Below, in pieces: positions 1,513-19,605 of a stretch of 64,000 bases of DNA (positions are counted from its first letter, which is position 1; the number at the start of each line of letters is the position of its first letter). The stretch is from a virus. The stretch covers positions 52,031-116,030 of the IMG/VR virus record IMGVR_UViG_3300025508_000006, one strand, 5' to 3'. The notes under the pieces are model-generated. The model saw only the letters and a list, made by a program, of their open reading frames with translations. It made no database searches and was not told the origin of the DNA. A program made the translations under genes and the position numbers.

Positions 1513-4500
1513 ATGGCAAATATATTCACATCTAATACGTTATCTGGAAGTTATGCAGACGATTATAACGCTAATGACAACTATCATCAGATATTGTTTA
1601 ACAGCGGTCGCGCACTTCAGTCACGAGAACTTACACAGATGCAGACTCTTATCTATGAAGAGATGGGTCGCATGGGTTCGAACATATTTAAAGACGGTGC
1701 AGTAGTAAATGGTGGTGGTGTTAGCATGAACAATGCTTATCACTTCGTCAAGATTGCATCTACTAATCAGGGTGGCGAGTTCGGTGCTATACCAAACGGC
1801 ACTATCATAAAGAATCCTAACACAAATGTTTCTGCTCAGGTTATTCAAGCGATACCTGCTAACGGTACTCAGTTATTTGATACACTGTTCGTTGAGTACA
1901 TTAATAGTGGTAATGCACTAGCGACAAATTCACCAACTACATTTGGTGATAACGAAACCCTAGTTGAGCAATTTGCTACAAGCAGTGCTTATGAGTTAGT
2001 GACAGAGACTCCTGATGCGACAGGTTACGGTGCTAAGTTTACTGTTGCAGAAGGCGACTTCTTCATTCTAGGTCGTTTTGTTCATACCGAAGAACAGTCG
2101 ATTATTCTTTCATCTTATACTGGTGACAACATTAATGCTGAGGTAGGTTTCAAAGTCATTCAGCAAGTAGTAACTGTTACAGATACCGATTCTCTCTATG
2201 ACAATGCTTCGGGTATTGTTAATACTGCTTCACCTGGTGCTGATCGACTTCGCATCAGATTAGAACTTACTACTAGAGATTTGATTGGAGTAAACGATAC
2301 GTTCGTATTCCTTGCAGAGGTTGAAAACTCAGCAATCAGTGAACAACTACAATCTATTGACGCATATAGTAAAATCGAAGAACTTCTTGCGCTACGTACT
2401 AAGGAAGAGTCTGGTGATTATGTTGTCGAACCTTTCATTGTTAATGTCAGTGAAAACGACAATGGCATAGATGCTAATCTCGAACTTAATGTAAGTGAAG
2501 GTACTGCATATGTAAATGGTTATCGTGCAGAGAATCAATCACCAATTACTTTAAGTCTTCCACGACCAACAGAAACCGAGACAGTAGAGAACGATGTTAT
2601 CGGTGTGAACTACGGCAACTACTTTGTATGTACTGCAAACAGAGGTCTTCCTAATCTTGATCTTGCAAGAGTTGACTTGTGGAGCGCAACAGGTTATGGC
2701 GGTGGTGGTACTGATTACGGTACTTGTCGTATTCGTGCAGTAGAACCTTTCGGAACTAAGTTTAAAGTTTATGTATTTGACATGAGAGTGTTTACTACAG
2801 AAGACCTCGGTAATGTAAAAAGTATTGGTTCCTCAACTACTGATTACTTCGATATCGATTTACAGGGTGGTAAAGCAGTACTACACGAAACTACTAATAA
2901 TAATACAGCATTATTTGCAGCGGCATATCCTCGTATAGAGTCTCTTGCAGATATTGTGTTATCAAAACAAGTACGTCAACAAAAGACTGCATCCACTAAT
3001 GCTGTCACTCTTGATCAGTTACCCGTGGGTTCTTCATATGTAGATTCATCTTTATGGATTGTAAGTTTAAGCAGTGCAGTGATCGAAGCACCTAGCACCT
3101 ACACTGTTGCTATCACTAACGGTGGTAGAGATGCTACTATAACAAGTCTTGCTAGTGCTTCTGGTACGTATGAAATTCTTGCTTATGTTCAGAAGACTGC
3201 AACAGTTCGTCCAAAGACTCTCACAACCGCAACTGCAACTATCAACAGTACTACTGACTCTGCTGGTCGTACATTGTTTGATATTGGTGTTCCTGACATC
3301 TACTCTATTGATTCAGTGCGTCAAAGTAACAGTGTAGGTTTTGATCTCTCGTCCGCAGTAGTACTTGACGATGGACAACGTGACAACTATTATGCTGACG
3401 GTAGTCTTTTACTCAAAGAAGGTCATGCAGATCCTTCTGCGATCTACATTTCATATAAGCACTTTGCACGAGGCAGTGGTGATTTCTACGCTCCTTCTTC
3501 TTACAACGTTCCTTATAAAGATATTCCTTTACATACATCAGTCACTGGTGATACAATTGATCTACGTGATGTTGTTGACTTCAGAGGAGATAGAAATGGT
3601 TTCGAAGGAACTTTCTCTAATGTCAATGCTCTACCTAGAGTAGGTACTAATATTACTGCTGATATCGACTATTATCTACCTCGTGCAGATAAAGTGATTA
3701 TTACACCAGAAGGTGAAGTACAAGTATTAATGGGTCAGCAAGCGCGTGAACCTCAGTTCAAAGAAACGCCTATGCACTCTATGGAACTATACAAGATTAT
3801 TCTCAACGGTAATACTATCAGCGAAAATGATTTGACTGTACTTCCAACAGCACAGCAACGCGGTTACACGATGAAAGATATTGGTGATATTGATCGCAAA
3901 TTAGATGCTCTTGAAGAATCCACATCATTAAGCATTGCAGAACTTGAAGCGAGATTGGACAATGTTCTTGATAGTGCTGGTGTTATTCGTATCATTAGTG
4001 GTATGCAAGTAGACGAGCATGGCGATCAAGGCAATAGTGAAGTCGAATCACCCGATTATAAGGCAGCAATTGATCCTGAGAATCGTTTAGTACGTCCTTC
4101 TTTTGAAGAAGGTAATATGCGTCTAATCTTCGACTCGGCGGCATCTTCGGGTGTTGTTAAGAAAGGTGATAATGTTTATCTTGCTCACACCGAAGCATCT
4201 TGGGTAAACCAAAGTATTGCATCACGGTCAGTTAAGATCAATCCGTTCGGTCTTATTGATAATGTAGGAACGATGAAACTATCACCATCAACTGATGAGT
4301 GGAAAGAATCTATTCAAAATGCCGCCAAGTCTCTTGCGGGTTCGGGTCGTCTATTCGGTAATCAGGCATTCTTATGGAATAACTGGATGTGGAACTGGCA
4401 GGGACGTACTGCGAAAGAGAATGCTGAAATTTCTAAGTTGGCAGGAGTAGTTCGTACTGGTTCTGGCAGAGCGAAAGCATTTGCTTTAAGAACATTACAT

Positions 4501-6891
4501 AATAAATATGGACTATCACAATCCGCCACTATCAAACGTATTATCTCTGGTAATACTCTACGTAACGTAGTAGGTGACAGAACTATTGATGTTGCATTTG
4601 TACCATGGATTAGATCACGTAAGATTTACTTCAAGGCACAAGGACTAACGCCCAACACTAAGTTTACACCATTCTTTGATGGTACTGATGTTTCAGTTTG
4701 GTGTCGCGAAGAATCATCGTTTGTTCAGTGGTCTGATAGAACAGATGAGATTGGTAACAAGTTTACTCACTCAGCGATAGTCGGTCATCCAGACGGCACA
4801 AGCGATCTGATTGCTGATGCTAACGGCGAAGTTATTGGATCATTCTTCATTCCTAATATCAGTCCTAAGTTAGAAGTTGCTCACACTAAGTATCGCGGAC
4901 GATACAACAAATATTATCTACGATTCAGATCAGGCGCACGAGAGTTCAAACTTCTCGATATTAATGTCAATGATTGGGCAAGTGCAAACAGTAAAGCATT
5001 CACTCACTATACTGTTAAAGGTCTGTTGCCTTGGACTTGGTACAATCCTTTAACTTATACACGTGGTCATCGTTATCTTTATCCTTACAACTATCGACAT
5101 AAGTTGTATTCAGCAAAAGAAATGAAAAAGGTTCTTGATAGTATACCAGCGAGTCAGGTGAATATTATTGATCCAAGATTATCTGGACTATATGGTCCTG
5201 ACGGTGTATCTCTGAATGCGGCAGCACTACAGACGCTTGCTAATAATCAAGATATGTCTAAGGTTCTGTCTGACTACATTAACGTGAATCAGGCACAGTT
5301 CGCTTCTATTCTTGGTGTAAGAGCAATTCCTACTCCTATGAATCCATTGGCACAGTCCTTTAAAGTCAACAACGAGTTTGGCGTAACACTAACTAAAATC
5401 GAGTTGTTCTTTAAGTCGAAACCAACTAATGTATCTCTGCCTGTTTCTGTACATGTTCGTCCTGTAGAGAATGGTAAACCTTCGATGAGTAGCATAGTAC
5501 CAGACTCGCATGTTTATGTCAATAGTGCAAATGTTATTGTTTCTAGCACAGGTGCTCAGTTAGCAACTATTCAAGGTAATGGAACGTCATTCGTATTCGA
5601 CGAACCTATTTACTTGGCACCAGGACAAGACTATGCTATTGTAGTTACTTCACAGTCAACTGAATATGAATTGTTCAGTGCTAGAACTAGAGAGTCGGTT
5701 ATCAACTCAACTGGTAGATACAACACTACACAAACTCCGGGTTATCTCTTCTTACCACAAAATGGTAAGAACTGGGAGAAATCACAGAACGAAGACTTAA
5801 TGTTTAAAGTTACTCGTGCAGTGTTCGGTTCAGGCGGCGGTGCTAACGGTAGTGTGATATTGAAAAATGCTTCTGTTCCTGCTAAACTTCTTGAAGAGAA
5901 TCCGATTCAAACTACGTTCAGCGACGAAAAGATTTATGTACGTCACATCAATCACGGTTTACGTCCAGGTGATGGTTGTAATGTTGATAGTGCTACAGAA
6001 ACGGGTGGTTTCTCTGCCGCACAGTTGAGCGGTTCGCATCAAGTTATTGATGTTGATATGTACGGTTACAGATTTGAAATTGATCCTTCTAATCCTGTTG
6101 TTGCTACATCAACAGCAACTGGTGGTGGTGAGAGAGTATTGTCACAAGGAAATATAAACTTCTCAGTAGTTAATCCAATTATCGAGTCGATTATTCCTAA
6201 CTCTACTTCGATTGATGTATCAGGTAAGTTTACTTCTGGGCGATCAATCTCTGGTTCAGAAACTCGATTTACACAGGACGCTAATTTTAACAGAATTACT
6301 CCTAAGACTAATACTGATCTTGCCTCAACGTTCACTCTGTATAACGACTTCGAAGTTGATTCATCTACCATGAGCGGAATCAATTCTTCTACTTTGTTTA
6401 AAGTTGACATGAAGAGTGCTAATGATTATGTTTCACCAATCATTGACTTACAAAGATCATCTTTGGTCACAGTAAACAATCTAGTTGATGATCCATCGGT
6501 TACTCCTCACATCTATAGTGTTGGAGCAACGGCAGCATCAGGAGCGTCTTCAAGTACTGCTCACATTATGAAACCAGTTGTTCTTGATCAACCTGCTATC
6601 GGTATTGAGATTACAGCGGAGTTAGCGATACACTATACAAGTAATGTTAAAGTATACTATAGAGTAGGCGCCGCAGATGAGAATCTTAATGATCTTGTAT
6701 GGATACTTCAACCAGAATTTAGCACTATCGTTAAAGATGCACAAATGCGTAAAGTTAAGTTTCTTGCTGGTGGTCAGGGCGGTACACTGAAACCATTTAA
6801 TCAAGCACAGACTAAGTTGATTATTGAAGGAACTGATCCTGCAAATACAGCAAAAATAGGTGATATAGTTGTTAAGTGGTTAGCAAGTTAA
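1513..6891 (+). CDS. DUF4815-type virion structural protein (baseplate/fibre connector)
   Basis: Large virion protein of 1792 residues. The N-terminus has the signature of DUF4815 proteins of marine T4-like phages: NYHQILFNSGRALQSREL followed by TQMQTLIYEEM and NIFKDGAVV (about 22-65). The C-terminal half carries the matching block NPLAQSFKV ... LTKIELFFKSK ... VHVRPVENGKPS (about 1277-1325), which in related proteins forms a beta module placed before tail fibres. T4 has gp9/gp10 at this map position, so it may replace those connectors. That role is inferred from position only. No transmembrane segment or catalytic motif was seen. The start ATG follows gp8 by 12 bases. Confidence 0.72.
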   Translation: MANIFTSNTLSGSYADDYNANDNYHQILFNSGRALQSRELTQMQTLIYEEMGRMGSNIFKDGAVVNGGGVSMNNAYHFVKIASTNQGGEFGAIPNGTIIKNPNTNVSAQVIQAIPANGTQLFDTLFVEYINSGNALATNSPTTFGDNETLVEQFATSSAYELVTETPDATGYGAKFTVAEGDFFILGRFVHTEEQSIILSSYTGDNINAEVGFKVIQQVVTVTDTDSLYDNASGIVNTASPGADRLRIRLELTTRDLIGVNDTFVFLAEVENSAISEQLQSIDAYSKIEELLALRTKEESGDYVVEPFIVNVSENDNGIDANLELNVSEGTAYVNGYRAENQSPITLSLPRPTETETVENDVIGVNYGNYFVCTANRGLPNLDLARVDLWSATGYGGGGTDYGTCRIRAVEPFGTKFKVYVFDMRVFTTEDLGNVKSIGSSTTDYFDIDLQGGKAVLHETTNNNTALFAAAYPRIESLADIVLSKQVRQQKTASTNAVTLDQLPVGSSYVDSSLWIVSLSSAVIEAPSTYTVAITNGGRDATITSLASASGTYEILAYVQKTATVRPKTLTTATATINSTTDSAGRTLFDIGVPDIYSIDSVRQSNSVGFDLSSAVVLDDGQRDNYYADGSLLLKEGHADPSAIYISYKHFARGSGDFYAPSSYNVPYKDIPLHTSVTGDTIDLRDVVDFRGDRNGFEGTFSNVNALPRVGTNITADIDYYLPRADKVIITPEGEVQVLMGQQAREPQFKETPMHSMELYKIILNGNTISENDLTVLPTAQQRGYTMKDIGDIDRKLDALEESTSLSIAELEARLDNVLDSAGVIRIISGMQVDEHGDQGNSEVESPDYKAAIDPENRLVRPSFEEGNMRLIFDSAASSGVVKKGDNVYLAHTEASWVNQSIASRSVKINPFGLIDNVGTMKLSPSTDEWKESIQNAAKSLAGSGRLFGNQAFLWNNWMWNWQGRTAKENAEISKLAGVVRTGSGRAKAFALRTLHNKYGLSQSATIKRIISGNTLRNVVGDRTIDVAFVPWIRSRKIYFKAQGLTPNTKFTPFFDGTDVSVWCREESSFVQWSDRTDEIGNKFTHSAIVGHPDGTSDLIADANGEVIGSFFIPNISPKLEVAHTKYRGRYNKYYLRFRSGAREFKLLDINVNDWASANSKAFTHYTVKGLLPWTWYNPLTYTRGHRYLYPYNYRHKLYSAKEMKKVLDSIPASQVNIIDPRLSGLYGPDGVSLNAAALQTLANNQDMSKVLSDYINVNQAQFASILGVRAIPTPMNPLAQSFKVNNEFGVTLTKIELFFKSKPTNVSLPVSVHVRPVENGKPSMSSIVPDSHVYVNSANVIVSSTGAQLATIQGNGTSFVFDEPIYLAPGQDYAIVVTSQSTEYELFSARTRESVINSTGRYNTTQTPGYLFLPQNGKNWEKSQNEDLMFKVTRAVFGSGGGANGSVILKNASVPAKLLEENPIQTTFSDEKIYVRHINHGLRPGDGCNVDSATETGGFSAAQLSGSHQVIDVDMYGYRFEIDPSNPVVATSTATGGGERVLSQGNINFSVVNPIIESIIPNSTSIDVSGKFTSGRSISGSETRFTQDANFNRITPKTNTDLASTFTLYNDFEVDSSTMSGINSSTLFKVDMKSANDYVSPIIDLQRSSLVTVNNLVDDPSVTPHIYSVGATAASGASSSTAHIMKPVVLDQPAIGIEITAELAIHYTSNVKVYYRVGAADENLNDLVWILQPEFSTIVKDAQMRKVKFLAGGQGGTLKPFNQAQTKLIIEGTDPANTAKIGDIVVKWLAS

Positions 6892-6892
6892 A

Positions 6893-7123
6893 ATGTCGCG
6901 CTACGTTAAAGTAGATGGTGTTCCTGGGTTAGTTCGAGATATGGAGTCTAATGCGTTAATAAACGTAAATTCTCATGAGATCGAACTTGCCCAGAAACAA
7001 AAGAGAATAAGAGAGAAGTCTAAAATAAATCGTCAAAACTTAGAGGATACAGTAGAAGTACTTCAGAAAGATATGTGTGAAATAAAGGAAGCATTAGCAA
7101 TATTGCTTTCCAGAAGCATATAA
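6893..7123 (+). CDS. Small conserved phage protein, C-terminal coiled coil
   Basis: A 76-residue protein beginning one base after the stop of the large structural gene, so translation is probably coupled. The N-terminus (YVKVDGVPGLVRDMESNALINVN split over residues 4-26) has a short beta-hairpin look that recurs in marine T4-like phages. Residues 30-72 are charged and heptad-like, a likely coiled coil. Function is unknown. A role next to fibre genes, such as assembly or trimerisation help, is only a guess from position. Confidence 0.6.
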   Translation: MSRYVKVDGVPGLVRDMESNALINVNSHEIELAQKQKRIREKSKINRQNLEDTVEVLQKDMCEIKEALAILLSRSI

Positions 7124-7126
7124 ATA
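7119..7126 (+). promoter_or_regulatory. T4-type late promoter upstream of the giant repeat protein
   Basis: Exact TATAAATA overlapping the last codons of the preceding small gene and ending 32 bases before the ATG of the 3509-residue protein. This gives the giant gene its own late start site. Confidence 0.75.
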
Positions 7127-7158: not shown

Positions 7159-10100
7159 ATGTCCTTACCGCTAAAACATCTCGGCACTGGTGCTCTTCAA
7201 GAACTCGCTACGCTTGATATTGATTATCTTGCGTATCAAGCGGGTATTCATCTTGGTAAAATGAGTAACGAAGATGTCTCTGCTATCTCCACAAATGGTA
7301 GCGGAGCAACAGTTGTCGGATCTTTTACAGATACTCTGTATGAGACAACAGTCGGTTCTACTCCAGGAACAACTTACACCGTAAACTTTACTGTTGAACA
7401 TCGTTCTAATCCTGGAACTGGTACACATACTGCAATATTCACAGCACAGAATGAAATGCCATCTCCTTTATATGTCGGAGATACAGTTTATGTTATCGTG
7501 AACGGTGATGCTATAACTGGATTCGAAGAGATCGGACACGAACTTGCTGTATCTGGTGATGCACTATTTGTTACCGAAGGTGTTAACACAACACCTACAG
7601 CAAATTCAGTTGATGGAACAAGAGTCGAGTGGGAAGACTTTCAGAATGTCGCAGGTCTCTCGGGATCATATCAGTCTGCCTTTGAAATTAAAGTGACTCA
7701 AGTAGGTCTCTTAAACTTTACTTTAACTGCTAACTCTACTGACGTAGATAACACAATCAAACAAACTGCTAATACTAGTATTATATTTCCTACTGTTGAA
7801 GTTGAAGAGACTTTACCACCGGAGTCTATAGGCGTACAGACTGATCTTTATCAAAAGACTACTGCTTCACAACCTATTAATACGACCAGTGCTTTAAAGA
7901 AAAATCCAATATACTGGAACAGAGCATTAACGCCTAATGGTGTTAAGGAGATGAATGACGCAGAACTTGACGCATTTTGCGAAGAGTTAGTCATACGTAT
8001 TATGCGGGACGAGTTGCCTGGTACTTATCGTCTATCCTCTAACAGTCCTGGTGCTAATTGGGTTCAGTTTATTCCTAGCGTATTCGAAGATACTCGTGCT
8101 GACGGAACTACAGTACCGTATTCAATATGGATAAGACAAGCGGGTATTAAACCTACTGTAATCAGACCAGTTTATGTTGCACGTAATGTAGAGAATGGTT
8201 GGGCAGGACTAAAAGAACATACAGATGCCGAAGTAGAATTTACTTTCGGCGAACGCGTAAAGAAAGCAATTGAAACTACAGGAATTGGTAAGTATCAGTT
8301 GCGCTCTTCAACACAAGGTGCACCCACTGATGCAGGTACATGGGTTGCACGTGGTAGTGCAATAGATACAAGACTTGAATACTTCTATGATACTGGTTAT
8401 CAGGCACTAGAAACCTACACGTCACAATATACAGAAGATTATCTTGGTGAGTATGAAGCAACTTATGCGGGTAACTATGAACCCACTTACACAGGCGAGT
8501 TCACAGGCGATTACCTAGGCACTTACGATGGTGACTTCATTGGCAACTACACTCCAACATATGACGGTGATTATCTAGGCGATTACTCGCAGAACTATCT
8601 TGGTGACTACAACACAGAATATACTCAGAACTATCTAGGTGACTATGTAAATCAATACACACCTACATATGATGGTGCCGATTACATTAGTGATTATGAA
8701 AATACATATGATGCTGATGCTGTCATTGAGCAATATGCCAGCGACTACGAATCTGTCGATTACGTTGGCAACTATATTTCTGATTATAACACAGACTATA
8801 TTTCCGATTATACCAATACATATCTTTCAGACTATTCTGGTACAGAGTATGTCGGCAATTATATTTCTGATTATCTAGGTGGATTCCAGACCGATTATCT
8901 CGGAAACTATATTTCAAATTATATTGATGATGTTTATGTAGGCAACTACATCACTGATTACACCAGCGATTATATTAGTAACTATCTTGGATCTTATGAT
9001 GGTGATTATCTAGGTGATTATGGCGCAAGTTATGAAGGTGCTTATGATAACTCATACGAAGGAGACTTCCAAGCAACTTATGCTGGTGACTTCACTGCTG
9101 ATTATCTCGGAACATATCTGACAGATTACGATTCGCAATACGAAGGGCAGTTCTCTGAAAACTACGATGGTGATTACATCAGCGACTATCTCGGAACATA
9201 TTCTAGTGGATATGAGTCTGAATATGAGACAGGTTATATAACCCAATACGAAGGCGCGTATGATGAATCAGAATATGTGGGCAACTTTGTTGCTAGTTAT
9301 GATAACTCATACGAAGGAGACTTCCAAGCAACTTACGCTGGTGATTACATCAGCGACTATCTCGGAACATACCTAAATGATTATGATTCACAATATGAAG
9401 GTCAATTCGCAGATAACTACGCCGGCGATTACATCAGCGACTACCTTGGAACATACGCTAGTGGATATGAGTCTGATTACTCCACTGACTACCTTACACA
9501 ATACGAAGGTGCGTATGATGAATCAGTATATGTGGGCAACTTTGTTGCTAGTTATGATAACTCATACGAGGGTGACTTTCAAGCAACTTATGCTGGTGAC
9601 TTCACTGCTGATTATCTTGGAACATACCTAAATGATTATGATTCACAATATGAGGGTCAGTTCGCAGATAACTACGATGGTGATTACATCAGCGACTATC
9701 TCGGAACGTACACTAGCGGATATGTGTCTGATTACTCTACTGACTATCTTACACAATACGAAGGTGCGTATGATGAAGCGAATTATCTAGGAAACTTTGT
9801 TGCTGATTATGTGTCTGACTTCGAAGGTGCTTACACCAATTTGTATGCTGGTGATTATATCAGCGACTATCTTGGAACATATGCTGGTGAATATGAAAGT
9901 GCTTATGCTACAAACTTCGATGGTATTTACGTTGGTGGATTCGATACAGATTATACAGCAACTTTTGATGGAGAATACGAGAACACCTATATCGGCAACT
10001 ATGTTTCAGACTATCTTAATGAGTTTGAAACCACATACACAGGCGACTATGGTGGTGAATACACCTCTACTTACGCCGGTAATTATAGTGGCAACTATAT

Positions 10101-13100
10101 TTCAGATTATACGAATGAGTTTGAAACCACATACATCGGTGACTATGGCGGTGAATATGTTTCTACTTACGCTGGTAATTATAGTGGCAACTATGTTTCA
10201 GACTATCTTAATGAGTTTGAAACCACATACGCAGGTGATTATGGTGGACAATATACTTCTACTTACGCTGGTAATTATAGTGGCAACTATGTTTCTGACT
10301 ATCTTAATGAGTTTGAAACACCATACGTAGGAAATTATAGCGGTGAATATGTTTCTACTTACGCTGGTAACTACCAAACACAATACGCCAATGACTATAC
10401 TAATGAGTTTGAAACAACTTATACTGGTGATTATCTAGGTAACTATGAAACTGATTATGCAGGCAATTATATTACTCAATACTCTGCCGAATATCAAGTA
10501 CCTTACACTGGTGTTTACACAGGCGATTACATCTCTGACTATATTGGTGATTACATCTCACCTTATGATGGCGCTCTGTACACTTCAGATTATATCTCTA
10601 CTTACGAAAGTGCATATGGTGGTCAATTTGAATCATCATACACTGGAGTATTTGACGGAACAACATACTCAGGAAACTATGCTAGTCAATACGTAGGCAA
10701 CTACATTGGCCTATACAACAAGAACTACGCGACAGCATATGAAGGCACTGATTACATATCCACATACGAAGAAACTTACACTGGAGATTATTCTGGACAA
10801 TATTCTTCTGCTTATGTAAGCGTTTATGATGCTCAAGCATATGCTACAGCATACGAAGAGAATTATATTGGAGATTATTCTGGTACATTCGGTGCTACGT
10901 TCTTAGGAACTTATGATAGTTCAAACTATACTTCAACATACGTAGAGACTTATGTTGGTGATTATCTTGGTAATTATGCTTCTGCTTATGTAAGCGTTTA
11001 TGATGCTCAAGCATATACTGCATCGTTTGACACAACCTATTCTGGTGAGTACTCGGGCGTATTTAACGCATCTTTTGCAGGCGAATATGATAGTACACAA
11101 TATACTTCATCATTTGAAACTACATATGTTGGTGATTATATTGGTCAATTTAGTCAGAACTTTGCTGCCAGTTTCGACGGAATACCTTATGTAGGATCAT
11201 TCGAGACAAACTATGTCGGCAACTATCTCGGACTGTTCACAGGTCAGTTCTCAGCATCATTTGCGGGTTCTGATTACATCTCAATATTTACTGCTCAGTA
11301 TACTTCGCAATATACTGGACAGTTTAGTGCTACTTTCAATGCTTCTTATGATGCTACAACATATGTAGGAGATTATGTATCTGGATACGCAACAGCATAT
11401 AGCGGTGCGTTTGGTGCAACCTTTATTGGCGAATATGATAGACAAGCATATGATACACAGTTTTCAGCAACTTATACCGGAAACTATATTGGTCTATTCT
11501 CTGCTACATTCTTAGGAACGTATGATAGAACAGGTTATGCTTCTAATTTTACTGCTGACTATACAGGTAATTATACTGGTGCCTTCGGTGCTACATTCTT
11601 AGGAACGTATGATCGTCTGCAATACACAAATGAATTTGAAAGTGCATATCTCGGCAACTATATCGGACTGTTCACACAAACGTATATTGGTTCTTATCAA
11701 AGAATCAACTATCTTACACAGTACGAAGGCATATACACAGGTGATTATAGTGGTGCCTTCAGTGCTACATTCTTAGGAACGTATGATCGTGCTGCCTATG
11801 CACGAGAGTATGACAGAGTTTATACAGGTAATTATACTGGCCAGTTCACAGCAAACTATGCCGCGACATATGATCGAATTGACTACACTTCTCAATACAC
11901 GGGCGGTTATACTGGCGGTCCCGCTGAAACTTTCGGTGCTACATTCTTAGGAACGTATGATCGTGCTGGATACGTATCACAGTATACGGGTCAATATGTC
12001 GGTCAAATTAGCGAAGTGTTTGGTGCTGATTACACAGGTAACTATGATAGTAGTAACTACACTTCGTCTTATACTGGACAATATGTAGGACAGATTGCTG
12101 AAAACGAGAATACCACCAATCAAGAATCTTTTGATAGTGGTCAATATGCCGCTCAGTACACAGGACAATATGTAGGACAGGTTGCTAAAAACGAGAATAC
12201 CACTAATGCTGAGTCGTATGATAGTTCAAACTACAACACACAATTTACTGGTAACTATACTGGCGGAGTTACTGAGAATATAACCCAGTCACAGAACGAA
12301 TCGTTCGCAAGAGATTCTTACGTCTCACAATATACTGGTCAGTATACTGGTGTAGTAGCACAAAACACTAACGAAACCTTTACACAAAACTTTAACGAAG
12401 CGGGATCCTATCAGGTTGGTTATGTAGGACAATATATTGGTCAAGTTTCACAGACTCAGCAAACTGGTGAGAGTGAAAACTTCCAAGTAAATTATACTGG
12501 TGATTATACTGGTCAATATATTGGAGTGATTTCACAGACCCAACAGACTGCTACAAATGAAGACTTCAACGTACAATATACTGGTGATTATACTGGTCAA
12601 TATACTGGTGCTGTACAGGAAGCAATATCTTCTACTTACACCGGTGGTTATACTGGTGTTTACAGTGGTAGTTATACTGGTGGTTATACTGGTGGGGTTT
12701 CTCAGACTCAACAGACTGGCATTGCTGAAGCAATAACACAGTCACAGAATCAGTCATTCGCCCGCAATTATGCTGGTAACATCTATGGGACTACTTCTCA
12801 GGTGTCTCTGGGATATACTTCTGACTCATATAATCTGGTGAGTAGTGTAGGTTATAACCCAATCAATCAAGGTGGTGCTTTTTACTCTGCCGGATCGATG
12901 TCTCCTACCTATTGGGGAGGAGGAGTCAATTCGACAGTCACTAAAGTATACAAAAAGAATAACTTTATATACGACGGCACCGGGCAAGATGAGATGCACC
13001 TGTTTTTCGGATCAACCTTCAGTGCATCACAGCAGGGTTCTTTCGGTTCTTTGTTTATATGGTATAGCGGGACTAGTACCACTGCGACTGCGGCAGACAG

Positions 13101-16100
13101 AGCGGGTCATCGATTCTATTCATCACAAGCAACATTGAGTCTCGGCACTAATCAAACGCATTACGCATGGTTACTGGGCAGTGTAGGTACCCAGTACCCT
13201 TTATGGACTTCCAATCTTAATGCTGAGGGTACACCGTGGAATGTTGCTTGGATTCCAAATACAACATCGTCTACTAATTATAATGCCGGTACGTACACAG
13301 GACAATACTCTGGTCAATATGTTGGTGTTTATGTTGGTGGATATACTGGAGTATATACTAGAGTACAACAAACTACTGTAATCGATAATGTCGCAGAAAC
13401 AATTCAACAGTCATACACTGGAACATACACTGGTGGATATGAACGATCACAGAATCAAACTTTCAGTGCGGTCTATGCAGGAACTTATACTGGTCAATAT
13501 ACTGGTGGTTATGTTGGAGCATACGAGAGAGCGCAGAATCAAACTTTCACTGCGGTTTATCAAGGAACTTATACTGGTATTTACACGGGTGGTTATGTTG
13601 GTCTATACGAGAGAGCGCAGAATCAAGAATTTGCTGTTGTATACACCGGTTCATACTTAGGCGACTACACTGGACAATACTCTGGTGGTTATGAACGTGC
13701 GCAGGACGAAACATTCGGTGCAACATATATCGGTGACTATATCGGTCAATACTCTGGACAATACTCTGGTGTATATACACGAGAACAGGCAACAAATTAT
13801 GCCTCTGATTATCTAGGAACATTTGTCGGTAACTATACTGGACAATACCTTGGATTATATGAACGTGCCCAGAATGAATCGTTCACCGTAAACTATCAAG
13901 GAACTTATACTGGTGGTTATACTGGACAATATGCGGGTCTATATGAACGTGCGCAGGACCAAGCATTCGCGGCAAACTATCTCGCAACTTTTGAAGGCGC
14001 ATTCGGAGCGCAGTACACAGGACTATATGAACGTGCGCAGGACCAAACATTTGCTGCCACATACACAGGAACATTTGAAGGTAACTATGTATCACAATAC
14101 ACTGGTTCTTATGAACGAGTGCAGGATCAGCAGTTCTCTGCTAACTATCTAGGAACGTTCAACGCGAGTTATGCTTCTCAGTACGAAGGCGCGTTCGCTT
14201 CCGACTATGCCACACAATATGCTTCACAGTACGTAGGAACATTTGAAGGTGACTATCTATCACAATACACCGGTGGATTCACTCAGAACTTTACAGGTCA
14301 GTTCGGTGTTAACTATGAAGGAACGTTTGACGGTAATTATGCGACACAGTACGAAGGTAATTTCTCACAATCTTTTACTGGTACTTATGCTACACAATAT
14401 ACAGGAACATTTGAAGGTAACTATGTATCAGAATACTCGGGTGCATTTGCCGCTCTTTATACAGGAGACTTTGCTGCCTCGTATCTAGCAACGTTTGATG
14501 GAAATTATGTTAGTCAATATGAAGGTAACTTTGCTGCCAACTTCGGGGCGCAGTTCAGTGAACAATATATTGGAACTTTCTCTGGTGACTATGTGTCAGA
14601 ATATATCGGCGCATTCAATGTTACATATCAAGGCAATTACACTTCTGATTACATTGATACATACACATCCGATTATGTTTCACAGTATGAGTCGCAGTTC
14701 TCCGCTGTATATGCTGGCAACTTCGAAGGTGCATATACAGATGATTATCTTGGCGAGTATGCTAGTCAATACGAAGGCAACTTTAGTGCAACATTCACTG
14801 GAACTTATAACGTAGATTACATCGACACATATACCTCTCAATACCTGTCTACTTACGAAGGTGCTTTTCAAGCACAGTTCATAGGAACATACGACTCACA
14901 GTATCTAGGAACTTTCATCGGTGATTATGGTTCAGCATATGAAAGCAACTTTACTGCTAACTTTGATGGAACATATGATTCAGCATATATCGACACTTAT
15001 GCGGGTGATTATATCTCGGCATACACAGGTGCTTTCCAAGCAAACTTTGAAGGAACCTACGACACACAGTATCTAGGAACATTTGAAGGCAACTATGTGT
15101 CACAGTACACTGGTGACTTTGCCGCAACATTCACTGGAACCTATGACGTTGATTATATTGATACATATGCTGGTGATTATATCTCGGCATACATAGGTAC
15201 TTTCCAAGCAAACTTTGTTGGAACATATGATGGTAACTTCACAGGAACTTATGCTACAGGTTACAACACTGACTATGAAGGAGCGTTCTTAGTTGACTAT
15301 CTTGGTGATTACATATCTGATTATGTTCCTACATATGAAGGTCAATATGCTACTCAATATGAAGGTGATTATGCATCGCAGTACTTAGGTAATTATAACT
15401 CTGCTTACACATCCACTTATGACGGTAACTTCACTCAGACATATGCGGGTAACTTTACTGATGTATATGTTTCTGACACATATATCGGCGATTACATAAA
15501 TCAGTACACGCAAGATTATGTATCTGGATATGCGACACAGTACGAAGGAGCATTCCAACAGAACTATATCGGAACTTATGACACTCAGTACGAATCACAA
15601 TACACTCAAGATTATGTTTCTGACTACGATTCTGGTTATGTCGGTGACGATTTAGAGCAATATGATGGCACTTACGGAACTGCATATGCGGGCGACTTCA
15701 TACAGGACTTTATCACTGACTATGATTCTCAATACGAAGGAGACTTCCAACAGAACTATGTAGGCACTTACGGAACTGCATATTCTGGAGACTTCGTACA
15801 GGATTTTATCACTGACTATGATTCAGGTTACGAAGGAGACTTCCAACAGAACTATGCTGGCACTTACGGAACTGCATATGCGGGTGACTTCATACAGGAC
15901 TTTATCACGGACTACGATTCTAGTTACGAAGGAGATTTCCAACAGAACTATGTAGGCACTTATCAGACTGCCTATGCTGGAGACTTCACTGCGGACTATC
16001 TTACTCAGTACACAGCATCTTACGATGGCACTGTCTATGCTGGAACATACGACTCAAATTATATCAATCAGTATGAGTCAGACTTTACTGAACAATATAC

Positions 16101-17688
16101 TGGTGAGTACGACGACATTGATTATGCAGGTAATTATATCAGTGACTTCGAAACTGATTACACGGGTTTCTATACCTCAGATTACATAGGCGATTATCAG
16201 AGTAATTATCTAGCAACATACGCAGGATTCTACGAGACTGCATTCACTGCAACTTATGCAAGTGAATATACTTCTAACTACGATGATCAAGATTATGCTG
16301 GCAACTATGTTAGTCTTTACACTGGGGATTTCATTGGACAATATACTTCAACTTATGAGACTGCTTATGATGACATCAACTACGTAGGCAACTATATCAG
16401 TGACTATGTTGGTGACTATAGCGGTGATTATGTAACAGATTACGTAGGGGATTATCAGAGTGATTACCTAGCAACATACGCAGGATTCTATGAGACTGGA
16501 TACCTTACAACATATGGAAGTGAATATACTTCTAACTATGACGACATTGATTATGCTGGTAATTATATTAGTCTTTACATTGGCGACTTCATTGGACAAT
16601 ATACTTCAACTTATGAGACTGCTTATGACGACATTGATTATGGTGGTAATTATATTAGTGACTATGTTGGTGACTATAGTGGTGATTATGTAACAGACTA
16701 CATAGGCGATTATGAGAGTAATTATCTAGCAACGTATGCAGGATTCTATGAGACAGAATACCTTACAACATATGCAAGTGAATACACGTCCAACTATGAT
16801 GATCAAGATTATGCTGGCAACTATGTTAGTCTTTACATTGGTGACTTCATTGGACAATATACTTCAACTTATGAAACCGCATATGATGACATCAACTATG
16901 TGGGTAATTATATTAGCGACTATGTTGGTGACTATAGCGGTGATTATGTAACAGATTACACTGGAGTTTACGAAGAGCAGAACTACCTCGGCAATTACGT
17001 ATCAACTTATGATGATATTGAATATGAAGGTAACTATGATTCAATCTACACTACAGATTATCTTGTTGACTTCGAGGGTAATTACTTAGGTGATTACAAC
17101 ACAATCTACGAAGGAACTTATGAGTCTTTATATTCAGGTGACTTCTTACAAGGATTTGATGGAGTCTATGAGGGTGGTTTCGATTCTACTTACGCAGGTG
17201 ATTACGGTACTACTTACGCAGGAGACTATGAGTCAAACTACACACTAACTTATGTTGGTGATTATCTTGGTGACTATACTCCATCGTACTCAACTCTATA
17301 TGCTGGCAACTACACAGGCACTTATGACGCTGATGCAGTAGATGAGTCTTACACTGTTGATTATATCGAACAAACTTATGATACGGACTACACAGTAGAC
17401 TATCAAGAGGATGTCTATCTGGGCAACTATATAGATACATTTGACGGCGCAGATGTTGAAGAGACTTACGTTTCCTCTTATGACGATGTTGATTATTCTA
17501 CTGACTATTCTTCTGACTACGATAATGTCGATGCAATAGAGAACTATCAAGATGCTGATTACACAGGAACATATACTCAAGACTATGCGATAGATTATCA
17601 AACATCTATATTATACGGTGTTGGTGGCAAGTTACTTGCTAATCCAGTACAAATTGAAACATACACATTATATGTAAGGGTAGCATAA
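7159..17688 (+). CDS. Giant aromatic-tetrad repeat adhesin/tail-fibre protein (3509 aa)
   Basis: The largest gene of the window. Residues 1 to about 230 begin MSLPLKHLGTGALQELATL and form a beta-rich head domain of a type found at the start of marine T4-like fibre proteins. Residues about 230-410 hold a second globular part (LYQKTTASQP, NPIYWNRAL, GTYRLSS) with a pattern seen in other phage fibres. From about 413 to 3476 nearly every fourth residue is Tyr or Phe, in the form [YF]-x-[G/S/x]-x, for example YTGDYLGTY. A non-repeat island occupies about 1875-2042. The last ~30 residues (ILYGVGGKLL ... YVRVA) close the chain. The outer repeat zones are rich in Asp/Glu; the middle is rich in Asn/Gln/Thr with Arg (YERAQNQ, TYDRA). 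No signal peptide or membrane segment is seen. A virion adsorption fibre is inferred from the head domain, late promoter and location; the receptor is unknown. Confidence 0.7.
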   Translation: MSLPLKHLGTGALQELATLDIDYLAYQAGIHLGKMSNEDVSAISTNGSGATVVGSFTDTLYETTVGSTPGTTYTVNFTVEHRSNPGTGTHTAIFTAQNEMPSPLYVGDTVYVIVNGDAITGFEEIGHELAVSGDALFVTEGVNTTPTANSVDGTRVEWEDFQNVAGLSGSYQSAFEIKVTQVGLLNFTLTANSTDVDNTIKQTANTSIIFPTVEVEETLPPESIGVQTDLYQKTTASQPINTTSALKKNPIYWNRALTPNGVKEMNDAELDAFCEELVIRIMRDELPGTYRLSSNSPGANWVQFIPSVFEDTRADGTTVPYSIWIRQAGIKPTVIRPVYVARNVENGWAGLKEHTDAEVEFTFGERVKKAIETTGIGKYQLRSSTQGAPTDAGTWVARGSAIDTRLEYFYDTGYQALETYTSQYTEDYLGEYEATYAGNYEPTYTGEFTGDYLGTYDGDFIGNYTPTYDGDYLGDYSQNYLGDYNTEYTQNYLGDYVNQYTPTYDGADYISDYENTYDADAVIEQYASDYESVDYVGNYISDYNTDYISDYTNTYLSDYSGTEYVGNYISDYLGGFQTDYLGNYISNYIDDVYVGNYITDYTSDYISNYLGSYDGDYLGDYGASYEGAYDNSYEGDFQATYAGDFTADYLGTYLTDYDSQYEGQFSENYDGDYISDYLGTYSSGYESEYETGYITQYEGAYDESEYVGNFVASYDNSYEGDFQATYAGDYISDYLGTYLNDYDSQYEGQFADNYAGDYISDYLGTYASGYESDYSTDYLTQYEGAYDESVYVGNFVASYDNSYEGDFQATYAGDFTADYLGTYLNDYDSQYEGQFADNYDGDYISDYLGTYTSGYVSDYSTDYLTQYEGAYDEANYLGNFVADYVSDFEGAYTNLYAGDYISDYLGTYAGEYESAYATNFDGIYVGGFDTDYTATFDGEYENTYIGNYVSDYLNEFETTYTGDYGGEYTSTYAGNYSGNYISDYTNEFETTYIGDYGGEYVSTYAGNYSGNYVSDYLNEFETTYAGDYGGQYTSTYAGNYSGNYVSDYLNEFETPYVGNYSGEYVSTYAGNYQTQYANDYTNEFETTYTGDYLGNYETDYAGNYITQYSAEYQVPYTGVYTGDYISDYIGDYISPYDGALYTSDYISTYESAYGGQFESSYTGVFDGTTYSGNYASQYVGNYIGLYNKNYATAYEGTDYISTYEETYTGDYSGQYSSAYVSVYDAQAYATAYEENYIGDYSGTFGATFLGTYDSSNYTSTYVETYVGDYLGNYASAYVSVYDAQAYTASFDTTYSGEYSGVFNASFAGEYDSTQYTSSFETTYVGDYIGQFSQNFAASFDGIPYVGSFETNYVGNYLGLFTGQFSASFAGSDYISIFTAQYTSQYTGQFSATFNASYDATTYVGDYVSGYATAYSGAFGATFIGEYDRQAYDTQFSATYTGNYIGLFSATFLGTYDRTGYASNFTADYTGNYTGAFGATFLGTYDRLQYTNEFESAYLGNYIGLFTQTYIGSYQRINYLTQYEGIYTGDYSGAFSATFLGTYDRAAYAREYDRVYTGNYTGQFTANYAATYDRIDYTSQYTGGYTGGPAETFGATFLGTYDRAGYVSQYTGQYVGQISEVFGADYTGNYDSSNYTSSYTGQYVGQIAENENTTNQESFDSGQYAAQYTGQYVGQVAKNENTTNAESYDSSNYNTQFTGNYTGGVTENITQSQNESFARDSYVSQYTGQYTGVVAQNTNETFTQNFNEAGSYQVGYVGQYIGQVSQTQQTGESENFQVNYTGDYTGQYIGVISQTQQTATNEDFNVQYTGDYTGQYTGAVQEAISSTYTGGYTGVYSGSYTGGYTGGVSQTQQTGIAEAITQSQNQSFARNYAGNIYGTTSQVSLGYTSDSYNLVSSVGYNPINQGGAFYSAGSMSPTYWGGGVNSTVTKVYKKNNFIYDGTGQDEMHLFFGSTFSASQQGSFGSLFIWYSGTSTTATAADRAGHRFYSSQATLSLGTNQTHYAWLLGSVGTQYPLWTSNLNAEGTPWNVAWIPNTTSSTNYNAGTYTGQYSGQYVGVYVGGYTGVYTRVQQTTVIDNVAETIQQSYTGTYTGGYERSQNQTFSAVYAGTYTGQYTGGYVGAYERAQNQTFTAVYQGTYTGIYTGGYVGLYERAQNQEFAVVYTGSYLGDYTGQYSGGYERAQDETFGATYIGDYIGQYSGQYSGVYTREQATNYASDYLGTFVGNYTGQYLGLYERAQNESFTVNYQGTYTGGYTGQYAGLYERAQDQAFAANYLATFEGAFGAQYTGLYERAQDQTFAATYTGTFEGNYVSQYTGSYERVQDQQFSANYLGTFNASYASQYEGAFASDYATQYASQYVGTFEGDYLSQYTGGFTQNFTGQFGVNYEGTFDGNYATQYEGNFSQSFTGTYATQYTGTFEGNYVSEYSGAFAALYTGDFAASYLATFDGNYVSQYEGNFAANFGAQFSEQYIGTFSGDYVSEYIGAFNVTYQGNYTSDYIDTYTSDYVSQYESQFSAVYAGNFEGAYTDDYLGEYASQYEGNFSATFTGTYNVDYIDTYTSQYLSTYEGAFQAQFIGTYDSQYLGTFIGDYGSAYESNFTANFDGTYDSAYIDTYAGDYISAYTGAFQANFEGTYDTQYLGTFEGNYVSQYTGDFAATFTGTYDVDYIDTYAGDYISAYIGTFQANFVGTYDGNFTGTYATGYNTDYEGAFLVDYLGDYISDYVPTYEGQYATQYEGDYASQYLGNYNSAYTSTYDGNFTQTYAGNFTDVYVSDTYIGDYINQYTQDYVSGYATQYEGAFQQNYIGTYDTQYESQYTQDYVSDYDSGYVGDDLEQYDGTYGTAYAGDFIQDFITDYDSQYEGDFQQNYVGTYGTAYSGDFVQDFITDYDSGYEGDFQQNYAGTYGTAYAGDFIQDFITDYDSSYEGDFQQNYVGTYQTAYAGDFTADYLTQYTASYDGTVYAGTYDSNYINQYESDFTEQYTGEYDDIDYAGNYISDFETDYTGFYTSDYIGDYQSNYLATYAGFYETAFTATYASEYTSNYDDQDYAGNYVSLYTGDFIGQYTSTYETAYDDINYVGNYISDYVGDYSGDYVTDYVGDYQSDYLATYAGFYETGYLTTYGSEYTSNYDDIDYAGNYISLYIGDFIGQYTSTYETAYDDIDYGGNYISDYVGDYSGDYVTDYIGDYESNYLATYAGFYETEYLTTYASEYTSNYDDQDYAGNYVSLYIGDFIGQYTSTYETAYDDINYVGNYISDYVGDYSGDYVTDYTGVYEEQNYLGNYVSTYDDIEYEGNYDSIYTTDYLVDFEGNYLGDYNTIYEGTYESLYSGDFLQGFDGVYEGGFDSTYAGDYGTTYAGDYESNYTLTYVGDYLGDYTPSYSTLYAGNYTGTYDADAVDESYTVDYIEQTYDTDYTVDYQEDVYLGNYIDTFDGADVEETYVSSYDDVDYSTDYSSDYDNVDAIENYQDADYTGTYTQDYAIDYQTSILYGVGGKLLANPVQIETYTLYVRVA
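9046..9810 (+). repeat. Three tandem 255-bp units (85 residues)
   Basis: The block starting GATAACTCATACGA occurs at 9046, 9301 and 9556, exactly 255 bp apart, with near-identical content including YDNSYEGDFQATYAG and YISDYLGTY. The following stretch from 9811 is a diverged fourth copy (VSDFEGAY). Each unit has one five-residue step, YDESEY or its variants YDESVY and YDEANY. Confidence 0.9.
10018..10497 (+). repeat. Five tandem 96-bp units (32 residues)
   Basis: The AATGAGTTTGAAAC start (NEFET) recurs at 10018, 10114, 10210, 10306 and 10402, each 96 bp apart. The unit reads NEFETTY-GDYGGEY-STYAGNYSGNY in protein. It contains only four-residue steps. The last unit is the most diverged. Confidence 0.9.
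11329..12024 (+). repeat. Eight 87-bp units (29 residues) with YDR step
   Basis: Equivalent positions of the ATFLGTYDR motif fall at 11329, 11416, 11503, 11590, 11677, 11764, 11851 and 11938, always 87 bp apart, although two copies are strongly diverged (QTYIGSYQR and ANYAATYDR). Four copies share the exact DNA GCTACATTCTTAGGAACG. Each unit holds one five-residue aromatic step around YDR. Confidence 0.88.
12781..13284 (+). other. Non-repeat island inside the giant repeat protein
   Basis: Residues about 1875-2042 lose the tetrad pattern and read as an independent globular domain rich in Gly, Ser, Thr and Trp, with motifs SPTYWGGG, DEMHLFFGS, FIWYSGTS, RFYSSQ and WNVAWIPN. It contains the His, Trp and Lys that are rare in the repeat. 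The tetrad pattern resumes immediately with TYTGQYSGQY. It may be an exposed binding or enzymatic domain carried on the fibre; no family was recognised. Confidence 0.75.
13438..14193 (+). repeat. Nine 84-bp units (28 residues), YERAQ type
   Basis: The YERAQ-like start falls at 13438, 13522, 13606, 13690, 13774, 13858, 13942, 14026 and 14110, an unbroken series with 84-bp spacing. Variants include YERSQ, YTREQ and YERVQ. Every step is four or eight residues, so 28 is an exact multiple of four. Confidence 0.92.
15736..16023 (+). repeat. Three 96-bp units (32 residues), GDFQQNY type
   Basis: GAAGGAGACTTCCAACAG or a one-base variant occurs at 15736, 15832 and 15928, 96 bp apart, followed by GTYGTAY-GDF-QDFITDYDS in protein. 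The protein unit has the same length as the 10.0-10.5 kb block but a different sequence. Confidence 0.88.
16190..16963 (+). repeat. Three 258-bp units (86 residues)
   Basis: The GCAGGATTCTA anchor occurs at 16222, 16480 and 16738, exactly 258 bp apart. Each unit carries two five-residue steps (YDDQDY or YDDIDY, then YDDINY or YDDIDY), as well as FIGQYTSTYETAY and YVGDYSGDY. Copies are nearly identical in DNA, indicating recent duplication or homogenisation. Confidence 0.9.
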
Positions 17689-18161
17689 TGACAGTGGAAT
17701 TTTTAGACAATGGATTTTGGGAAAACGAAGAAAAGACAATACTTAAATGTATTCGCTTAACTCCTATACCAGAAGGAGGTAGAAAGAAAGACGTTCTTGA
17801 ACTACGTAAGATATTGCCGGACGGTTCAGAATGTCCTCAGTTCAAGCAGTGTATCGCACAGCATGGTATAGCAAAGATTGATGCTAATACGCAAGTTCGA
17901 AAGGATACTAAAGAGAAAGAAGATCGAGAGAAACGTGCTATACACGAGCAACGTAAAAAATCTCACGAACTTGAACAACTCTTTAATGCCAAACTACAAG
18001 CATTCGAAATTGATGAGATCAAGAACTCAACAAATCGCGAGTTGCGTTCTAAACTACGTAGGGCGAAGAATGTTATTGAAATGAATGCATTGGCAGCATT
18101 AGTGATTGGAAGTGAACTTGGTTATTTTAAAAAGGTAGATGAAGATGAGCGAACCGACTAA
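17688..18161 (+). CDS. Conserved hypothetical protein downstream of the giant fibre
   Basis: A 157-residue soluble protein whose ATG shares the final A of the giant gene's stop (TAATG), so it is translationally coupled to it. The first 65 residues are compact (FLDNGFWENEEK, IPEGGRKKD, LELRKILPDG). Residues 70-115 are highly charged and probably coiled coil, followed by a helical tail. No catalytic motif was recognised. Coupling suggests a fibre chaperone or assembly factor; this is inference from position. Confidence 0.6.
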   Translation: MTVEFLDNGFWENEEKTILKCIRLTPIPEGGRKKDVLELRKILPDGSECPQFKQCIAQHGIAKIDANTQVRKDTKEKEDREKRAIHEQRKKSHELEQLFNAKLQAFEIDEIKNSTNRELRSKLRRAKNVIEMNALAALVIGSELGYFKKVDEDERTD

Positions 18162-18903
18162 AGGTTATGTTATTGTAGCATCACGAAAGAAGTTTTTTTA
18201 TGTCTCTGCCATTAATTTGATGGAGTCAATCAAAGATTATTATCCTGAAGCACAGATTACATTTGTAGTAGAAGAAAAGTTTCTTGACGGACAAGAAAGA
18301 ATTGCAGACAATGTTATATTCTGCGACGATCATGCTAGAGCAAAACTGATTGGTATGGCAAAGTCTCCGTATGATATAACGTTTTATGTCGATGCTGATA
18401 TAGAATGTGAACATGAAGACATTGCAACTATCTTTGATAAACTTGATGGACACGATTTGATGTTTACTGGTTTACCTGCTGATAGGCATTATTGCTATGC
18501 CGAGGTGTTCTTCGAGGGTGCAAGAAAACCAGACGGCACTAAAGCAGGATTTGAATTGTGTGGTGGTGTTTGTCTATATGATATGCGTAAACCCTTAGTT
18601 CGTTCATTCATGCAAGATTGGTATGACTTGACTGTTGCTCAGTACGGTAAAGTTTGGTGGCCAACATTAGAAGATGGAGTGACCGAAGATTTAGAAAATT
18701 ATCCTGCAACTCTGAAGAGATGGGATCAATTCTCACTGTGGTGGTTAGTCAATAAAGAACCTAAGTACAAAGATTTGAAAGTCGGTATACTAGAAGACGA
18801 TGCTCGGTGGAACTTTTATTCCAAATATAAATATGATCACAACAAGGATCCTGTCGTATTGAGACACTATTCTTCTTCTGGAGCAAAGCAACTGGATTTT
18901 TAA
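18145..18903 (+). CDS. GT-A-like glycosyltransferase
   Basis: A 252-residue protein with the features of a nucleotide-sugar glycosyltransferase: a Rossmann-like start (GYVIVASRKKF), a DxD motif in YVDADIE at residues 83-85 that would bind the metal and sugar nucleotide, and a later conserved CGGVCLYD stretch. An ATG also exists at 18139, but AAAGG at 18131-18135 is only 3 bases from it and 9 bases from 18145, so 18145 is preferred. It overlaps the preceding gene. Likely role: glycosylation of phage DNA, virion protein or host surface; the target is not visible here. Confidence 0.6.
   Translation: MSEPTKGYVIVASRKKFFYVSAINLMESIKDYYPEAQITFVVEEKFLDGQERIADNVIFCDDHARAKLIGMAKSPYDITFYVDADIECEHEDIATIFDKLDGHDLMFTGLPADRHYCYAEVFFEGARKPDGTKAGFELCGGVCLYDMRKPLVRSFMQDWYDLTVAQYGKVWWPTLEDGVTEDLENYPATLKRWDQFSLWWLVNKEPKYKDLKVGILEDDARWNFYSKYKYDHNKDPVVLRHYSSSGAKQLDF
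18826..18833 (+). promoter_or_regulatory. Possible late promoter inside the glycosyltransferase gene
   Basis: Exact TATAAATA within coding sequence, ending 72 bases before the next gene (oxygenase-like). It could give that gene a late start, but coding sequence can also produce this octamer by chance (Lys-Tyr-Lys-Tyr codons). Confidence 0.4.
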
Positions 18904-18905
18904 AT

Positions 18906-19580
18906 ATGATGAAAAATATACCACTGAATGATTATGCAATTAATCTTCTGAACGAAGCACTTTGGTTTACTAAGGAAGAGAACTACAGTGCTGTTATTCC
19001 TTCTAAGATAAATGATTTAGATAAAGCAGATTGGTACACTGGTCAAGAATATTTCGAGCAGATTAAGGGCGAGGGCAGACAACATGATGGGTTCCCCGCT
19101 TTCGTTACTAGTTATTCATTCAATCAAGATTATAGGTTTGATCCTCGTAATCCACATATTGATCGAAAGATAGCAGAAGTTGCAGATCATCATGGCAAGT
19201 TGATGACTAATATACAGACCGCTTTCAATCTTAAAAAGAATGCTCTGTTCTCTGTATATCCGCCCGGTGGTTATATCTCATGGCACAACAATGCGAATGC
19301 TTCGGCATATAACTTTATATTCACTTACAGTGAAACTGGTGATGGTTGGTGGAAGCATTGGGATCCAGTCAATCAGAAAATGATTCACATTCCTGATGTT
19401 AAAGGTTGGCAATGTAAAGCAGGACACTTCGGTGCATATGAAGATGGACCCGAATCCCTAGTATATCACACTGCACGTAATGGTGAAAGCGGAATACGTA
19501 TGACAATTGCCTTTGTATTAGATCGATCAGAGATGTCTTTAGGTATACAAGATTGGGTAATTGAAGATATACACGTCTAA
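18906..19580 (+). CDS. 2-oxoglutarate/Fe(II) oxygenase-like protein with altered metal motif
   Basis: A 224-residue double-stranded beta-helix protein of the type common in marine T4-like phages. The core pattern is visible: PPGGYISWHNN (120-129), YNFIFTYSETGDGWW (135-149), then YHTARNG with His188, and RMTIAFVLD with Arg198, the usual 2-oxoglutarate anchor. Canonical enzymes use H-x-D/E...H for iron; here the first pair is H127-x-N129. Asn at this site may weaken iron binding or mark a changed chemistry. Two ATG codons are adjacent (18906, 18909) and either may be used. Substrate is unknown. Confidence 0.6.
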   Translation: MMKNIPLNDYAINLLNEALWFTKEENYSAVIPSKINDLDKADWYTGQEYFEQIKGEGRQHDGFPAFVTSYSFNQDYRFDPRNPHIDRKIAEVADHHGKLMTNIQTAFNLKKNALFSVYPPGGYISWHNNANASAYNFIFTYSETGDGWWKHWDPVNQKMIHIPDVKGWQCKAGHFGAYEDGPESLVYHTARNGESGIRMTIAFVLDRSEMSLGIQDWVIEDIHV

Positions 19581-19585
19581 ACTCT

Positions 19586-19605
19586 TATAAATAAACCTAT
19601 AAATA
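19586..19605 (+). promoter_or_regulatory. Tandem late promoters (two TATAAATA)
   Basis: Two exact TATAAATA octamers at 19586-19593 and 19598-19605 lie in the 52-base gap before the next ATG at 19633. They are 12 bp apart, about one helical turn. Start sites would be close together, giving two short leaders. Confidence 0.75.

Follow-up and report, generated by a model that had tools for sequence, protein, structure and literature searches.

What kind of protein a virus would build from some 3,000 residues of a four-residue aromatic repeat is the question raised by a single open frame of 3,509 residues (7159-17688, + strand, ATG start) in a marine T4-like virus of bacteria. The gene lies in what is called here the window, i.e. 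the whole 64-kb stretch of DNA that was analysed, out of a 116-kb viral record. An earlier reading of this locus, referred to below as the first-pass annotation, saw in it a possibly undescribed fibre fold with an aromatic residue at every fourth position. This idea of an undescribed fibre is plausible, and the analysis reported below led to a stronger result, namely a new phage protein family that is locked to a pair of enzymes.

The aromatic ladder and its repeats

The recurrence of Tyr or Phe at every fourth position of the protein was borne out. Over residues 410-3485, the 694 Tyr and Phe residues form 599 aromatic pairs at +4, compared to 156±10 (maximum 189) in 500 residue shuffles; 597 of the aromatic-to-aromatic gaps are of exactly four, and the autocorrelation amounts to 0.82 at lag 4 and still to 0.34 at lag 40. 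Tyr represents 16.0% and Phe 4.7% of the residues, Pro 1.0% and Lys 0.5%, while the third position of the tetrad is occupied by small residues (Gly 45%, Ser 20%, Thr 11%, Ala 10%). The longest unbroken run of this ladder comprises 112 aromatics (residues 2326-2770). The first-pass annotation can be refined, as the tract is interrupted: residues 1-409 are non-repeat, an island interrupts the ladder at residues ~1872-2045, and ~50 skips of five residues (YDxxxY) split it.

Along the + strand, the non-repeat N-terminal region (7159-8385) contains two clear copies of a family domain near its end and a third one at its start. It is followed by a first ladder block (residues 410-1871, 8386-12771), by the non-ladder island (12772-13293) and by a second ladder block (residues 2046-3485, 13294-17613). 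Second-order periods of 29 (7x4+1), 28, 32, 85 and 86 residues are superimposed on the 4-residue period. In the first block, an 85-residue super-repeat is present in three copies (residues 621-875, 9019-9783), and a 29-residue super-repeat, made of seven tetrads and one extra residue at the YDxxxY skip, in ~21 units (residues 1141-1749, 10579-12405); the second block harbours super-repeats of 28 (residues 2066-2345), 32 (2835-2962) and 86 residues (2960-3289). Finally, a conserved C-terminal tag (17614-17685) closes the protein with the residues ETYTLYVRVA.

The ladder recurs, 99.9% identical and without any gap, in an independently obtained contig of another sample (L007), and the frame of the gene is open as well in L006, a relative with 74% identity, which excludes an assembly artefact. 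In the comparison of the window with L006, the ladder aromatics are kept in 503 of 516 cases (97%), whereas the other residues are identical in 1,267 of 1,839 (69%). The ladder indels of at least 10 residues detected in comparison with L006 and L004 measure 32, 56, 58, 64, 96, 170 and 172 residues, each being a multiple of four or of one of the super-repeats (29, 85 or 86 residues); the small irregular indels relative to L006 cluster in or beside the island, with the exception of a single residue at 1749. At the DNA level, neighbouring 29-residue units are mostly just 0.40-0.68 identical, with the register still kept, and some super-repeats are near-identical (0.79-0.89). Unequal recombination alone accounts for the unit-sized indels, but not for near-fixed aromatics amid 29-residue units that have drifted apart.

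An uncatalogued phage family

The ladder protein is one of the giants in a so far uncatalogued family of phage proteins, whose plan it fits: a non-repeat N-terminal region, a [YF]-x-small-x ladder and a C-terminal tag L-[WYF]-x-R-x-A. More than 100 relatives were identified in IMG/VR, using the N-terminal region as query on the one hand and the YxGx repeat pattern on the other; an alignment of 24 divergent members being too diverse for the locus search, narrower alignments were taken instead. From one member to another, the ladder extends over ~70 to more than 3,000 residues, and the proteins range from short members of 314-527 residues, in which about three non-repeat domains precede the ladder and the tag, to giants of at least 3,708 residues. 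Among 101 distinct C-termini, Leu occupies position -6 in 95, Arg position -3 in 95 and Ala position -1 in 89. The short relatives and the common tag, as well as the enzyme genes described below, had been overlooked by the first-pass annotation.

Tandem pairs of ladder genes were seen in L018, L111, L125, L162, L169, L201 and L204, the first gene seemingly without an enzyme set of its own and the second being followed by the enzymes. Besides, a sub-family with ...FWKR[IV][AN] or LWKRHA C-termini (L011, L012, L061, L071, L103, L112, L120) has a second ladder-like gene directly 3' of the first one where both are visible.

The repeat does lie outside the catalogued families: for the giants, nothing was matched in Pfam, PHROGs or NCBIfam, the PDB sequences gave no match to the ladder, and no profile of the catalogued tail fibre families (PHROGs, Pfam) matches the ladder proteins. 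PHROGs contains nothing that matches the short members either, and in Pfam they gave sub-threshold matches only, chiefly to glycine-zipper models (12 of 42 members); a glycine-zipper identity was discarded, these matches being taken as low-complexity similarity. Searching for the repeat among phage proteins, as had been suggested, revealed phage C48C1 as the sole carrier in 50,697 phage records. Run against 84,980 genomes, the pattern of four successive YTGx units detected 20 stretches, among which the true family member is one contig of a gammaproteobacterial MAG (stretches L219 and L223), recognised by its ladder and C-terminal tag; most of the other stretches being short simple repeats, a cellular origin of the ladder was not retained. 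In the literature on aromatic or tetrapeptide repeats in phage fibres, on C48C1 and on its accession, nothing describing the ladder family was found.

Regarding the fold, an AF2 monomer of a short member of 402 residues (L049) was computed from an alignment with 42 relatives. The pLDDT mostly exceeds 90 in two parts, namely residues 1-240, the counterpart of the N-terminal region of the window protein, and the C-terminal end (~381-402); it falls below 50 over residues 258-369, i.e. most of the ladder. Long strands are predicted where the ladder begins and, at its other end, running on into the tag. In the PDB and BFVD, the model has no fold match at E<=1e-3. AF2 monomers are poorly suited to intertwined fibres, and a monomer prediction cannot settle the fold of the ladder. 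The ladder would be a shaft of extended β-structure, most likely built from several chains, with aromatic and small residues alternating on one face. A span of 3,000 residues could reach ~1 µm as a single extended strand, ~200 nm at a rise similar to that of the T4 fibre, or ~50 nm as a solenoid of 28 or 29 residues per turn. Whether the chain exceeds the length of the virion, as has been put forward, depends on its fold.

A cassette of four genes between late promoters

The virus is a T4-like myovirus, and the ladder gene is one of its late structural genes, which are grouped in a block. Upstream, on the same strand, are found genes for a gp8-like baseplate wedge (106-1500) and for a VrlC-like DUF4815/phrog_358 baseplate protein of 1,792 residues (1513-6891); downstream, fibre-assembly-like, tail-fibre, neck, terminase, sheath, portal, capsid and DNA-polymerase genes follow. 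A T4-type late promoter, TATAAATA, is present 40 nt 5' of the ladder gene (7119-7126, + strand), and two more are located directly 3' of the fourth gene of the cassette (at 19586 and 19598; 19586-19605, + strand), where they likely mark the boundary of a late unit. The window contains 13 matches to this promoter, all on the + strand, while 5.8 are expected by chance on both strands; besides the three already mentioned, one is found at 18826, inside o254. The ladder gene and the three genes that follow it, o157, o254 and o224, are thus enclosed between late promoters. The position of the ladder gene in the late block, between baseplate and tail-fibre genes, makes a virion fibre reasonable. The interpretation offered by the first-pass annotation, a fibrous, virion-attached adhesin, is partly supported.

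Other features of the region include a 76-residue ORF (6893-7123, + strand) flanked by the DUF4815 gene and the late promoter; a gene of equal length (231 bp, L128:16172-16402), annotated as 'virion structural protein', occupies the matching place in C48C1. The structural block also contains the terminase (35665-37290) and a 1,270-residue protein (30401-34213) with weak PHROG matches only.

The second gene of the cassette, o157 (17688-18161, + strand), encodes a protein with invariant K102 and R124 that is possibly a chaperone or assembly factor.

The third one, o254 (18139-18903, + strand), encodes a putative GT-A-type glycosyltransferase, as suggested by its DxD motif and by weak profile matches. 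In the alignment of its homologues, D85xD87 and D196 are invariant and H243 is present in 95%. Compared to the PDB sequences, the best 18 matches of its profile are all glycogenin (E 0.022-0.16), over ~90 residues that include the DxD region. Many members of the o254 family have weak Pfam matches to GT2, Nucleotid_trans and GT8, the best GT8 match (3.2e-4) being obtained in single members, and a profile-profile comparison of o254 with GT8 members (hhalign, controls run) was not significant. Two more glycosyltransferase-like ORFs were noticed in the record, at G000:C1 28172-28831 (L323:8172-8831) and 22009-22563 (L229), one matching the o254 profile (E 6.7e-6) and the other matching PF01501 weakly (E 0.003); the ORF that follows the one in L229 has, by eye, a cysteine motif recalling radical-SAM enzymes.

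The fourth gene, o224 (18906-19580, + strand), encodes a protein whose AF2 model (pLDDT 93) has the fold of the 2-oxoglutarate/Fe(II) oxygenases. This model has 98 PDB matches at E<=1e-3, and the 50 listed are all 2OG oxygenases, with prolyl hydroxylases at the top and AspH among them; these matches settle the double-stranded β-helix oxygenase assignment at the level of the predicted fold. The residues H127, N129, H188 and R198 are invariant, within a WHxN...H-x9-R pattern. The H...H-x9-R part of this pattern lines up with PF05118 members, in a profile-profile alignment (controls run) that is not significant. In addition, the HxD/E of most 2OG oxygenases is replaced by HxN in o224, which makes its activity uncertain.

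The ladder, o157, o254 and o224 form a module. Among the distinct ladder genes followed by 4.5 kb or more of sequence, 36 of 38 are accompanied by all three partners. In the two remaining cases, one gene is the first of a tandem ladder pair, and the other, L219, has an o254 homologue in a second stretch of its contig (L223). Conversely, when loci are seeded with o254, o157 and o224 are adjacent in 80 out of 80, and a ladder lies directly upstream in 71 of the 77 that offer room for it. In the six others (L284, L301, L285, L290, L291, L299), the ladder is found farther upstream in L301, while for L284 it is carried by another stretch of that contig, L085; one locus scored as positive on a weak match, L311, also has its ladder farther upstream and none right beside o157. 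Homologues of the VrlC-like neighbour protein are carried by 1,280 phage records, while homologues of the ladder, o157 and o254 are restricted to C48C1, and those of o224 to C48C1 and one partial match in an uncultured phage; this count is a lower bound, since the phage collection possibly lacks the records closest to the window. This linkage favours, short of proof, the ladder fibre as the substrate of o254 and o224.

A probable fibre with putative modifying enzymes of its own

Taken together, these data lead us to favour, with some reserve, a virion-associated fibre of aquatic T4-like phages that would be made late in infection and modified by its own o254 and o224 enzymes. The N-terminal region would anchor the protein, probably at the baseplate or at a fibre-attachment site, and the [YF]-x-(G/S/T/A)-x ladder would form the shaft, which would be long and regular, probably with a β-structure, and would change in length by gain or loss of whole repeat units. 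The C-terminal tag may act as an assembly or recognition signal, marking the end of the protein for assembly or for the enzymes. The ladder protein would be produced late, in step with o157 as putative assembly factor and with o254 and o224, which would most likely hydroxylate and/or glycosylate it, as occurs for collagen-type fibres, thereby providing a sugar-coated, stiff or protected fibre for host contact. A bolder version is put forward more tentatively: a fibre of virion length or of the micrometre class, with an undescribed aromatic tetrapeptide shaft, might be hydroxylated and glycosylated by a dedicated oxygenase-glycosyltransferase pair, possibly on ladder tyrosines or threonines, and would represent a collagen-like system evolved independently in phages.

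The two enzymes could also act on the host surface glycan, on phage DNA or on another virion protein, and merely travel with the ladder in a late operon. DNA glycosylation is common in T4-like phages. Besides, the glycosyltransferases encoded in the host-recognition clusters of pelagimyophages have been interpreted in a published study as modifiers of the host O-chain (PMC7029224). However, the enzymes are linked to the ladder nearly one to one in both directions, they are missing from nearly all of the 1,280 VrlC-like-bearing phage records devoid of a ladder, and late-promoter boundaries surround the ladder cassette, all of which makes another substrate unlikely in our view.

Slightly less credit is given to a disordered or amyloid-like low-complexity tail or matrix, in which the ladder would serve as a flexible tether or as a released protein that aggregates cells instead of as a folded shaft. 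The low pLDDT throughout the ladder in the AF2 monomer, its Tyr/Gly/Thr-rich composition and the curli-related genes reported in related phages (PMC7029224) are in keeping with such a tail. Against it stand the strict 4-residue register over thousands of residues and between relatives, the strands predicted at both ends of the ladder (those at the C-terminal end being highly confident), the place of the gene in the baseplate/fibre block and the poor performance of AF2 monomers on intertwined fibres. Finally, a recent expansion of DNA repeats under little selection, of which the ladder would be a mutational by-product, is disfavoured and appears very improbable: near-identical DNA in some super-repeats and indels of whole repeats would fit with it, but the register is intact between 29-residue neighbours that have mostly diverged in DNA, the aromatics are kept far more often than the other residues (97% versus 69%), and the ladder is present across a family at ~40% identity.

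If the modified fibre is real, the ladder proteins would constitute a widespread, uncatalogued class of aquatic phage fibres, with a new repeat architecture amenable to structure determination, and the cassette a phage-encoded module for fibre modification. Glycosyltransferase and hydroxylase genes that are usually assigned to the host surface or to metabolism would then be reassigned to the modification of virion proteins. In this context, PMC12619734 mentions, citing other work, glycans on the capsid and tail-tube subunits of mycobacteriophages. The linkage of the ladder with the enzymes makes modification of the fibre directly testable.

Among the closest known systems is that of phage C48C1 (OQ984149, Kyanoviridae), in which a 3,347-residue 'hypothetical protein' (WJE88074) shares 38.6% identity in the N-terminal region, over residues 239-405. 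It resembles the window protein by its aromatic tetrapeptide ladder, by its last ten residues (ETYTLYVRVA) and by the trio of genes downstream, and differs from it in being rich in YxRx/FxGx tetrads and in having several non-ladder islands, which could be swapped recognition domains. In this gene (L128), a stretch of ~90 residues (KTRHRSYLYYSTDTSTNQQFFEPRVDDM...) occurs twice in tandem. Further o224-like oxygenase copies exist in C48C1 outside the cassette (OQ984149 40274-40711; three places for one query).

The T4-like gp34/gp37 long tail fibres and the host-recognition fibres of pelagimyophages and cyanomyophages are encoded, as the ladder is, between baseplate and neck genes (PMC7029224), and share with it a late promoter, a very long repetitive protein and a fibre-assembly-like gene nearby. 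The ladder, in contrast, has no sequence or fold match with them, follows a 4-residue aromatic period and comes with dedicated glycosyltransferase and oxygenase-fold genes. As for these enzymes, glycogenin, a GT8 member that glucosylates its own tyrosine, is the best PDB sequence match of the o254 profile, at an E-value of only 0.022. The aspartyl/asparaginyl β-hydroxylase and the prolyl hydroxylases are fold matches of o224 without membership at the sequence level, its HxN standing in place of HxD, or of the HxG of AspH.

Finally, mimivirus, which encodes collagen plus collagen-modifying enzymes (PMC5802723, PMC9546862), provides a precedent. The ladder differs from collagen by its period of four, without Gly-X-Y and with almost no Pro or Lys, and the enzyme families differ as well. 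The ladder system can be called collagen-like in logic only, the common logic being that of a virus-encoded fibrous repeat accompanied by a 2OG oxygenase and a glycosyltransferase.
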